NCBI GenBank assembly: GCA_949152475.1
Contig: OX424556.1
Span: 2,480,001-2,544,000, forward strand
Length of the DNA: 64,000 bases
DNA from: Terebella lapidaria
Lineage: Eukaryota; Annelida; Polychaeta; Terebellida; Terebellidae
Reading direction: 5' to 3'
The position numbers and the translations under genes were made by a program. The notes under the pieces were generated by a model. That model was not told where the DNA came from and ran no database searches. It saw only the letters and a program-made list of their open reading frames with translations. How positions within the stretch are numbered: position 1 is the first letter of the stretch; every line of letters starts with the position of its first letter. Shown one piece after another: positions 55,101 to 61,100 of this stretch.

Positions 55101-58100
55101 GGATCTAACATAGTGTGCTCCATGCTGCTCGTAATGTTGATTTGTCACTGAATTGTCTATAGCCAGGCCTCACATTGCATGTGTGTTACAGGCGTCTGGT
55201 CAGCGCCTGTACCAGTGGCTGAAGATCGCTCCGTACCAGCCTGATCACCAACTCGACGAGGACGACGATGACTTTGATCCTAATAAAGGGGTCAAGGTCA
55301 TGGGAGTGTCGTTTTCTTCTGACAGGTTCGTTGCTGTCAACACTTGCCACAAATTGCAACTGTATTTTGCTATCTATTGGATGCTCATATGTTTACCAGT
55401 TTGTGTTGAAAATGAGTACCATATATGCATTTGTATATACCCTATGTTATTTAGTGACCTATTATGTGTATATAGAGACAAGAGTTGTGATGATGTTCTG
55501 TGGTTGTGTTGTAGAGAGTCTGCCCAGTTTTGTGCACTGATTGATGGAGATGGGGAGGTCACAGAGTACATGCGACTTACCAATCTCCTCAAACGTCGGG
55601 ACGCCTGGAGGGCTGAGGATGCCGAGGACAAGGTACTCATACATATTTCATCCTACATGTAATAACACTTTATTACAACTGAAATACCTTTATTCATCAA
55701 GTATCTATAAAATGTATCTATCTATTATCAAGTATCTATCAAATGTATCTATCTATCAAAAATCAAATTGGATTACAGCAAACTGATCTTGCCAAAGTGA
55801 AAGACTTTATCCTGAAGAAGCGACCACATGTGATTGGTGTTTTAGCTGAATCAAGGTTAGTCAAAAATAATTGTGACCTTTGATTGATGGTATGAATATA
55901 TATACCCCATAGCAGAAACCCATGAGAGAAATCATAGTGATTCAATCAAGACTCAGACTTACTCAGTCCACCATCCATGACAAGGTGTTGTATCCAATAC
56001 CAGTAGTTCAGTCAGTGTTGGGGCCATGCGTAATGTGATGTGTTGTCTGTTGTTGCTATAGAGACGCATCCATGATCGTGGAGGATCTGAAGGAGGTCGT
56101 GTCTCAGCTGGAGCAAGAGGAGCAGCTGATCCCGATCAGCGTGGAGCTTGTCGACATGGAGCTCGCTAACATCTTCTCCAACAGCAAAAAGGCAGAGGTG
56201 GGTCAGCTCAACATGATAGGCATGCCCGAATGATTTTAATGAAGTAAAAAAACCATCATGGTGAAGTTAAAGTATAAAAGTCTAGCAGTGATTGTAATGT
56301 ATTTATATACACCTTGCAGCAAGATTTCCGAGATTACCCGGCGGTGCTGAGACAAGCGATTTCTGTGGCCAGGAGACTCCAGGATCCACTCGTCGAGTTC
56401 TGTCAGCTATGCAACTCCGACGAGGATATCCTCGCACTCAAGTACCATCCGCTACAGGTCACTAGCTCAGTCATGTAATCAGTCATCCAACCCGCTACAG
56501 GTCACTAGCTCAGTCATGTAATCAGTCATCCAACCCGCTACAGGTCACTAGCTCAGTCATGTAATCAGTCATCCAACCCGCTACAGGTCACTAGCTCAGT
56601 CATGTAATCAGTCATCCAACCCGCTACAGGTCACTAGCTCAGTCATGTAATCAGTCATCCAACCCGCTACAGGTCACTAGCTCAGTCATGTAATCAGTCA
56701 TCCAACCTGCTACAGGTCACTAGCTCTGTCATGTAATCAGTCATCCAACCCGCTACAGGTCACTAGCTTAGTCATGTAATCAGTCATCCAACCAGCTACA
56801 GGTCACTAGCTCAGTCATGTAATCAGTCATACAACCCGCTACAGGTCACTAGCTCAGTCATGTAATCAGTCATCCAACCCGCTACAGGTCACTAGCTCAG
56901 TCATGTAATCAGTCATCCAACCCTCTACAGGTCACTAGCTCAGTCATGTAATCAATCATCCAACCCGCTACAGGTCACTAGCTCAGTCATGTAATCAGTC
57001 ATACAACCCGCTACAGGTCACTAGCTCAGTCATGTAATCAGTCATCCAACCCGCTACAGGTCACTAGCTCAGTGATGTAATCAGTCATCCAACTTGCTAC
57101 AGGTCACTAGCTCAGTCATGTAATCAGTCATCCAACCCGCTACAGGTCACTAGCTCAGTCATGTAATCAGTCATACAACCCGCTACAGGTCACTAGCTCA
57201 GTCATAAAATCAGTCATCCAACCCGCTACAGGTCACTAGCTCAGTCATGTAATCAGTCATCCAACTTGCTACAGGTCACTAGCTTAGTCGTGTAATCAGT
57301 CATCCAACCCGCTACAGGTCACTAGCTTAGTCATGTAATCAGTCATCCAACCCGCTACAGGTCACTAGCTTAGTCATGTAATCAGTCATCCAACTCGCTA
57401 CAGGTCACTAGCTTAGTCATGTAATCAGTCATCCAACTTGCTACAGGTCACTAGCTTAGTCATGTAATCAGTCATCCAACCCGCTACAGGTCACTAGCTT
57501 AGTCATGTAATCAGTCATCCAACCAGCTACAGGTCACTAGCTCTGTCATGTAATCAGTTATCCAACCTGCTACAGGTCACTAGCTCAGTCATTTAATCAG
57601 TCATCCAACTTGCTACAGGTCACTAGCTCAGTCATGTAATCAGTCATCCAACCCGCTACAGGTCACTAGCTCAGTCATGTAATCAGTCATCCAACCCGCT
57701 ACAGGTCACTAGCTCAGTCATGTAATCAGTCATCCAACCCGCTACAGGTCACTAGCTCAGTCATACAACCCGCTACATGTCACTAGCTTAGTCATGTAAT
57801 CAGTCATCCAATCCACTACAGGTCACTAGCTCAGTCATGTAATCAGTCATCCAACCCGCTACAGGTCACTAGCTCAGTCATGTAATCAGTCATCCAACCC
57901 GCTACAGGTCACCAGCTCAGTCATGTAATCAGTCATCCAACCCGCTACAGGTCACTAGCTCAGTCATGTAATCAGTCATCCAACCCGCTACAGGTCACTA
58001 GCTCAGTCATGTAATCAGTGATCCAACCCGCTAGAGGTCACTAGCTTAGTCATGTAATCAGTCATCCAACCCGCTACAGGACACTAGCTTAGTCATGTAA

Positions 58101-61100
58101 TCAGTCATCCAACCAGCTACAGGTCACTAGCCTTAGTCATGTAATCAGTCATCCAACCCGCTACAGGTCACTAGCTCAGTCATATAATCAGTCATCCAAC
58201 CTGCTACAGGTCACTAGCTCAGTCATGTAATCAGTCATCCAACCTGCTACAGGTCACTAGCTCAGTCATGTAATCAGTCATCCAACCCGCTACAGGTCAC
58301 TAGCTCAGTCATGTAATCAGTCATCCAACCAGCTACAGGTCACTAGCTCAGTCATGTGATCAGTCATCCAACCCGCTACAGGTCACTAGCTCGGTCATGT
58401 AATCAGTCATCCAACCTGCTACAGGTCACTAGCTCAGTCATGTAATCAGTCATCCAACCCGCTACAGGTCACTAGCTCAGTCATGTAATCAGTCATCCAA
58501 CCCGCTACAGGTCACTAGCTCAGTCATGTAATCAGTCATCCAACCCGCTACAGGTCACTAGCTCAGTCATGTAATCAGTCATCCAACCCGCTACAGGTCA
58601 CTAGCTCAGTCATGTAATCAGTCATCCAACCCGCTACAGGTCACTAGCTCAGTCATGTAATCAGTCATCCAACCCGCTACAGGTCACTAGCTCAGTCATG
58701 TAATCAGTCATCCAACCCGCTACAGGTCACTAGCTCAGTCATGTAATCAGTCATCCAACCTGCTACAGGTCACTAGCTCTGTCATGTAATCAGTCATCCA
58801 ACCCGCTACGGGTCACTAGCTTAGTCATGTAATCAGTCATCCAACCAGCTACAGGTCACTAGCTCAGTCATGTAATCAGTCATACAACCCGCTACAGGTC
58901 ACTAGCTCAGTCATGTAATCAGTCATCCAACCCGCTACAGGTCACTAGCTCAGTCATGTAATCAGTCATCCAACCCTCTACAGGTCACTAGCTCAGTCAT
59001 GTAATCAATCATCCAACCCGCTACAGGTCACTAGCTCAGTCATGTAATCAGTCATACAACCCGCTACAGGTCACTAGCTCAGTCATGTAATCAGTCATAC
59101 AACCCGCTACAGGTCACTAGCTCAGTCATGTAATCAGTCATCCAACCCGCTACAGGTCACTAGCTCAGTGATGTAATCAGTCATCCAACTTGCTACAGGT
59201 CACTAGCTCAGTCATGTAATCAGTCATCCAACCCGCTACAGGTTAGTGAGCTCAGTCATGTAATCAGTCATACAACCCGCTACAGGTCACTAGCTCAGTC
59301 ATAAAATCAGTCATCCAACCCGCTACAGGTCACTAGCTCAGTCATGTAATCAGTCATCCAACTTACTACAGGTCACTAGCTTAGTCGTGTAATCAGTCAT
59401 CCAACCCGCTACAGGTCACTAGCTTAGTCATGTAATCAGTCATCCAACCCGCTACAGGTCACTAGCTTAGTCATGTAATCAGTCATCCAACCCGCTACAG
59501 GTCACTAGCTTAGTCATGTAATCAGTCATCCAACTTGCTACAGGTCACTAGCTTAGTCATGTAATCAGTCATCCAACCCGCTACAGGTCACTAGCTCAGT
59601 CATGTAATCAGTCATCCAACCAGCTACAGGTCATTAGCTCAGTCATGTGATCAGTCATCCAACCCGCTACAGGTCACTAGCTCAGTCATGTAATCAGTCA
59701 TCCAACCCGCTACAGGTCACTAGCTCGGTCATGTAATCAGTCATCCAACCTGCTACAGGTCACTAGCTCAGTCATGTAATCAGTCATCCAACCCGCTACA
59801 GGTCACTAGCTCAGTCATGTAATCAGTCATCCAACCCGCTACAGGTCACTAGCTCAGTCATGTAATCAGTCATCCAACCTGCTACAGGTCACTAGCTCAG
59901 TCATGTAATCAGTCATCCAACCCGCTACAGGTCACTAGCTCAGTCATGTGATCAGTCATCCAACCCGCTACAGGTCACTAGCTCAGTCATGTAATCAGTC
60001 ATCCAACCCGCTACAGGTCACTAGCTCAGTCATGTAATCAGTCATCCAACCCGCTACAGGTCACTAGCTTAGTCATGTAATCAGAATTGATGTTTTGTTG
60101 TTTATGAGAGACGAGCATTGTTTGATATTAGACTGACTACTGTTGATCATCGTTCACAAGGTGTGAGTGGATCTGTTCCAGGATGCAGTGAGCAAGGAGG
60201 AGCTGTTGAACACTCTGTACTTGGAGTTCATCAACCGTGTTAACGAGGTTGGCGTGGACGTGAACGCGTGTGTGGCACATCCCCACCGTGCCCCCCTTGT
60301 ACAGTTTGTCTGCGGCCTCGGGCCTCGCAAAGGCTACCACCTTCTCAAGGCAAGCTAATTAATGAAGCAACTCCTTCTCAATGTATCACCAATGTTTCAT
60401 TGTTATGTCTTAATTGAAGAACTGTCAAATTACCTTTTGGTTTTCTGTGTGCCATTCCATAATGTTCTCACTGCATGACATTATTGTGTAAGAGCAGCTG
60501 CTTTCCAAGATCAAGGTATCCAATGTGGCTGTTGTTGCTGTTCTGTAGATCCTGAGGCAGAAGAACAATCGACTGGAGAACAGAACTCAGCTAGTCGTCA
60601 TGTGTCGGATGGGGCCCAAGGTGTTCATCAACTGTGCTGGATTCATCAAAATTGACACCAGTGCTCTTGGTGACAGGTGTGTGCATTAGAACTTTTCAAG
60701 TTCATGTTCGACTCATTGTGTTTTTAGTTGTTTCAGAGAGGACTCTTAGAAACGATAATACCAGAGGATGCAATGGAATCTTCATACATGATGATTGTGA
60801 CCTCTGTATAAATCTGTCCCCTCACCCAGCACGGAGGCGTATGTCGAGGTGTTGGACGGGTCACGAGTACACCCCGAGACATACGAGTGGGCGCGCAAGA
60901 TGGCGGTGGATGCTCTGGAGTATGACGACACGGCGGAGGACGCTAACCCGGCTGGCGCGCTCGAGGAGATTCTGGAGAGTCCTGAGCGCCTCAAGGACCT
61001 CGATCTTGATGCCTTTGCAGAAGAGCTCGAAAAACAGGTGTGTGAGAAGCTTGATGAGGGAAGCTGGTGAGAAGAAGGAAAATCGCCCTGTTTGACATTG

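Follow-up and report, generated by a model that had tools for sequence, protein, structure and literature searches.

Mirages are minisatellite-like tandem duplications of exon-intron boundaries that have been described in the lancelet genes Adh3, TnC and PGBD5 and in lancelet globins (PMC3087553, PMC3902484). Adh3 data and reverse transcription-polymerase chain reaction (RT-PCR) on globins suggest that regular splicing is undisturbed by the mirages, and the authors of the PGBD5 work likewise report no splicing interference for Adh, TnC and PGBD5 (PMC3087553, PMC3902484). Here, we describe an array of this kind in SPT6, a gene located in a 64,000-nucleotide stretch of contig OX424556.1 (positions 2,480,001 to 2,544,000 of the forward strand; hereafter the window, to which all positions refer unless otherwise stated). 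Intron 19 of the gene is largely occupied by a 43-bp tandem repeat in which nearly every unit carries a copy of the 5' splice site (donor) of exon 19. The array is a large example of the known mirage build, with about 85 units compared to 6 and 3 in two BflGb6 haplotypes. BflGb6 copies its acceptor boundary while BflGb9 copies its donor, like the SPT6 array. SPT6 differs from the lancelet cases in that a single essential gene has three arrays. Lancelets would be expected to have genes related to GFP. A search with PF01353 had no match in the present genome, nor in any of 14 control genomes, and we neither claim a lancelet host nor exclude one. If the host is not a lancelet, mirages would range beyond that group.

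Several other systems bear on the locus. The human IFI6 gene (6-16, G1P3) has a minisatellite of which two downstream units are used, giving three mRNAs (PMC4526556, citing Turri 1995). As in SPT6, a tandem repeat offers several donors to one exon, but the extra units of IFI6 are used in mRNA while the SPT6 unit closes the reading frame. In a 2024 study, dual-specific AGGT sites were found to be used in UBC (PMC10809524). UBC and SPT6 have in common the AGGT core at the unit boundaries and an expansion that is potentially spliceable; however, UBC units are coding ubiquitin monomers and SPT6 units are 43 bp long, mostly intronic and contain a stop. In intron gain by tandem duplication (Rogers; Gao and Lynch; Zhuo et al.; potato RdRp, PMC4974935), AG|GT sites are copied as they are in SPT6, but the SPT6 array enlarged an existing intron and created no new one. 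Finally, earthworm metallothionein introns are minisatellites, and no copying of boundaries is described in the available text (PMC12783039). SPT6 was not named in our literature searches on such arrays, which covered open-licence papers, and we do not claim that its array is unreported.

The exon 19 donor of SPT6 is copied in a 43-bp array

SPT6 extends on the plus strand from 49825 to 64000 and runs past the end of the window, in which we placed 32 exons from reading frames and splice sites. An earlier note on this DNA had named the gene and exon 19 from the letters alone. Both assignments are supported. The product has the SPT6 domain set (HTH_44, YqgF, HHH_7, S1 and SH2_2 in a Pfam search), and 692 residues of it can be aligned to the human protein (PDB 6ted chain M, with E reported as 0). 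Exon 19 (56320 to 56457, plus strand, phase 0, 138 nt) terminates with CTACAG at 56457. Intron 19 (56458 to 60181, plus strand, 3724 nt) opens with GTCACT, and exon 20 (60182 to 60349, plus strand) is preceded by AG and followed by a GC donor. The end of exon 19 is very likely placed correctly because the alignment of the protein with human SPT6 is gap-free over the 19/20 joint (HPLQ|D versus HPLQ|E in PDB 6ted chain M). Intron 20 is a GC-AG intron that starts AAG|GCAAGC at 60349/60350.

Tandem Repeats Finder (TRF) reports the 43-bp array at 56449 to 60084 on the plus strand with 84.8 copies, 95% matches and a score of 6547, far above chance expectation. The repeat begins 9 bases within exon 19, and the final 9 exonic bases (56449 to 56457, CCGCTACAG) belong to it. 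As in a mirage, the unit spans the exon-intron boundary, holding these exonic bases together with the donor and copying the junction CTACAG|GTCACT. The earlier note had described intron 19 as some 84 copies of its own 5' splice site, with a unit that starts in exon 19 and includes this junction, and the description holds on both counts. Segmentation of the array yields 84 whole units and a partial 85th (60060 to 60084, plus strand), whose donor copy lies 122 nt upstream of the acceptor, for a total of 85 donor copies including the real one.

The decoys were also said to be equivalent in nearly every unit. This is borne out by the unit junctions, 77 of 84 of which are exactly CAGGTCACT, and by the nine-base donor, which has 78 exact copies between 56320 and 60300, counting the real site and that of the partial unit. 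It does not extend to one unit that has lost its GT (kept in 83 of 84) or to unit 66, which is stronger. The junction of unit 66 is CAG|GTTAGT (59239 to 59247, plus strand, donor at 59242), and it is the top-scoring donor copy. On a matrix built from SPT6 and predicted dynein donors, with the real exon 19 donor itself in the training set, unit 66 scores 7.53, higher than all 31 SPT6 donors, and the real exon 19 donor scores 5.31, ranking 17th from the bottom among the 31.

Units 6 to 27, approximately, resemble units 54 to 73 at an offset of 48-49 units. This long internal block duplication shows that the array has expanded in the past. A 70-base probe from the array had at least 83 matches in the whole assembly (761.6 Mb in 438 contigs), a lower bound from a search that skips very common words, and all of them were at the intron 19 locus. 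A separate 73-bp repeat upstream of SPT6 (47881-48046) has the 11-mer GCTCAGTCATG in common with the 43-bp unit, perhaps by chance.

Reading frames, intron lengths and the probable use of the first donor

Readthrough from exon 19 into the intron gives VTSSVM* with TAA at codon 7. The earlier note had placed a stop at the seventh codon and expected any use of a decoy to truncate the product, and both points stand, as the frame closes there. SPT6 has two smaller donor-copying arrays on the plus strand, also detected by TRF. One (54252 to 54433) has 5.7 copies of a 32-bp unit, takes in 15 bases of exon 12 and copies AAG|GTAGGC in intron 12; the other (63153 to 63356) has 2 copies of a 102-bp unit, takes in 23 bases of exon 30 and copies CAG|GTCTGT in intron 30. 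The frames that read into introns 12 and 30 likewise end ahead of the last donor copy. Because stops precede the last copy in introns 12, 19 and 30, the SPT6 protein requires the first donor in each.

The intron that is left after the last donor copy, or with the array trimmed to one unit, measures 145 nt in intron 12, 122 nt in intron 19 and 171 nt in intron 30. These are ordinary sizes for SPT6, whose 31 introns in the window have a median of 160 nt. Because trimming to one unit gives such lengths, the arrays appear to have been added to otherwise normal introns. The retention of three arrays in one gene argues for first-donor use, which could come about by exon definition or by earlier transcription of the first donor. 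An exon-definition constraint had been proposed in the earlier note, and we infer its plausibility from the ordinary last-copy introns that lie behind stops in all three cases. Since the reading frame is open over the 19/20 joint, normal splicing of intron 19 is likely undisturbed.

Arrays at exon ends elsewhere in SPT6 and the genome

We surveyed 150 introns, comprising the 31 of SPT6 and 119 predicted near matches to dynein heavy chain, in five regions of 10 kb each. A 24-mer spanning the donor recurred within its own intron in 3 of the 150, all in SPT6, and a 24-mer spanning the acceptor did so in 0 of 150. Control 24-mers starting 12 bases into the intron recurred in the same three SPT6 introns only, and those near the intron end gave 2 weak cases (18 of 24 bases). 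At a score of 40, TRF found 5 arrays in the five dynein regions, 0 of them spanning a predicted donor. The excess of donor-spanning arrays in SPT6 (3 of 31 introns versus 0 of 119; Fisher p 0.008) is suggestive, the comparison being with one gene family whose intron predictions were not checked individually. The exon predictor was trained on SPT6 and then retrained on its own calls. When run on SPT6, its training gene, it found all 31 donors and made 15 spurious short exons, 11 of which were inside the array.

We considered a mechanism that targets donors and rejected it. Of the four intronic SPT6 arrays that TRF reports at a score of at least 50, three extend across a donor. Under a simple neutral model with arrays placed at random, however, the p value is 0.018-0.087 according to how much exonic overlap is accepted, which is not strong. 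A strict preference for donors is further disfavoured because the published BflGb6 mirage copies an acceptor (PMC3087553).

A motif search of the genome for three strong donors in tandem returned 105 and 97 places (202), compared to 26 and 122 (148) for the reversed motif. These raw counts reveal little on tandem donors. Among the matches listed, which cover C1, C2 and C3 to 37.84 Mb (approximately the first 200 Mb), there were 7 tandem-donor arrays versus 0 for the reversed motif, the single control; three places within 23 kb on C3 were merged as one. We inspected the four of the 7 listed arrays for which the locus sequence reached the array start, and 3 of these 4 are anchored at an exon end. 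The array in MORC2 (L011, reverse strand) is firmly anchored, as two exons join without a gap into human MORC2. A second adjoins a predicted exon whose neighbour is a DNA_pol_phi match that falls short of the curated cut-off. The third follows an open first exon that was read by eye, on which the predictor made no call and which had no family or PDB match. The fourth array (L009) leaves the donor out: it lies in an intron predicted on the other strand and starts about 18 bases into it. Collectively, these data suggest that boundary-spanning arrays are a recurrent route of intron growth in this genome. At positions 1429-1960 of locus L012, a 30-bp donor array has a unit whose frame contains no stop (TSTRKVSQVM), and splicing from a decoy at that locus would therefore extend the protein and not truncate it.

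Variation at the decoy donors

In the SPT6 array, variants that change the donor were single in 5 of 5 cases, compared to 4 of 19 in the other columns (Fisher p 0.003, with three units of other length left out). In a second alignment, the corresponding values were 8 of 8 and 16 of 31. The other four arrays had no clear singleton pattern, with single donor variants in 4 of 7, 3 of 4, 5 of 8 and 7 of 10 cases. We also ranked the nine donor columns by variability against every stretch of nine columns in the unit (1 being the least variable). The rank was 8 of 43 in SPT6, 37 of 37 in MORC2, 20 of 30 in L012, 23 of 38 in L028 and 7 of 31 in L038, an array for which no adjoining exon is known. The same ranking applied to three reversed-motif arrays gave 28 of 32, 32 of 36 and 7 of 36. 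In MORC2, the donor columns are the most variable of the unit, the opposite of SPT6. General selection on the decoys was therefore rejected, as the donor columns lack consistent conservation over the five arrays. RNA structure that hides the decoys was rejected as well: the first donor had an unpaired probability of 0.003 compared to a mean of 0.006 (0.001-0.016) for the other donors. We claim no regulatory role for the decoys.

Origin of the array and alternative explanations

We consider it probable that the array is a mirage-type minisatellite at the junction of exon 19 and intron 19, that unequal exchange enlarged it and that use of the first donor makes it tolerable. A short tandem duplication over the boundary would have started the array, and unequal exchange would have expanded it to about 85 units. 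The first donor, which is joined to exon 19, would win, and the array would be tolerated because the copies are then excised as intron. This choice may be made by exon definition over the 138-nt exon or on a first-transcribed, first-served basis. Occasional use of a decoy would produce early-stop transcripts only, which would probably be removed by nonsense-mediated decay. Our account rests on the anatomy of the array, the gene, its reading frame and stops, the block duplication within the array and the ordinary length of the residual intron; the donor choice for exon 19 is what we infer from them. Some of our observations weigh against it. The decoy at 59242 outscores the real exon 19 donor (7.53 versus 5.31). 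With introns as short as those of SPT6 (median 160 nt), intron definition would pick the last donor in each of the three array-bearing introns. In addition, the donor-changing variants in the SPT6 array never spread, which plain drift does not predict.

The junctions could instead act as dual-specific sites, with each CAG|GT serving as donor and acceptor, the array removed stepwise and a wrong choice repaired by joining the true donor to the CAG before exon 20. The AGGT core at the unit boundaries, shared by the 77 identical junctions, fits this possibility, as does a unit acceptor score of 4.18, which exceeds that of 6 of the 31 real SPT6 acceptors. The UBC study reports that AGGT sites are used and that such introns are in 8.4-fold excess in human tandem repeats, and its authors regard spliceable expansions as likely to be less harmful (PMC10809524). 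However, 4.18 is a low score for an acceptor, the pyrimidine tract is apparently poor, and the junctions of the intron 12 array are AAG in purine-rich surroundings; we regard stepwise removal as unlikely. It is similarly doubtful that 85 near-identical dual-specific sites, by scarless unit-to-unit splicing and second-step repair, would have let the array expand free of cost at its own splice site, although this, if true, would explain why such arrays recur in SPT6 and the genome. Less likely again is a regulatory function, in which competing donors would cut productive splicing and set SPT6 dosage through early-stop transcripts. The 78 identical donors of middle rank among those of SPT6, the stop at codon 7 and the singleton state of every donor-changing variant in the SPT6 array are consistent with such a function, and IFI6 is a precedent for the use of downstream repeat units as donors (PMC4526556, citing Turri 1995). 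Against it, conservation of the donor columns is inconsistent over the arrays, with MORC2 ranking 37 of 37, and the authors on lancelet mirages report or suggest splicing without aberration (PMC3087553, PMC3902484). The earlier note's suggestion that the array could tune splicing or SPT6 dosage finds no support in our tests.

An assembly artefact, in which the array was collapsed, inflated or chimaeric, appears very improbable. The array does contain near-identical blocks, and one BflGb6 mirage was misassembled in the lancelet draft (PMC3087553). But 3.6 kb is short by long-read standards, the 761.6-Mb assembly is contiguous, with 438 contigs, the differences among units are ordered, and the two smaller SPT6 arrays share the build. 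We give least credence to intron definition with use of the last donor, by which the array would be exonic in a non-coding or truncated isoform. The 122-nt intron that results would be ordinary for SPT6, but the array has its stop at codon 7, and the SPT6 domains encoded farther downstream remain intact and conserved. The locus is a natural experiment in which one exon faces 85 nearly equal donors and one acceptor, with two smaller replicas in the same gene. The donor chosen here would separate exon definition (the first), intron definition (the last) and stepwise dual-specific removal. For annotation, the array is a warning that exon ends may be copied many times.

Other features of the window and the assembly

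Retroelement copies with long frames lie at 8871-14763 and 37151-43042, and a partial copy is at 43287-47665. Two of the copies are in inverted orientation, with 99.4% identity over 5.9 kb; inverted copies are likewise present at 47.5-49.3 kb and 6.5-8.9 kb. One retroelement frame weakly matches a tyrosine recombinase, below the cut-off for Pfam Phage_integrase, and another resembles a reverse transcriptase. Because of these two likenesses, we regard the elements as DIRS-like. A 147-bp satellite-like array with block duplications occupies 22391-24591. Elsewhere in the assembly, contigs C370, C401, C185 and C249 contain unbroken, full-length matches to dynein AAA_6 in which TAA and TAG occur in frame and TGA does not, and these contigs look like ciliate contamination with reassigned stops.

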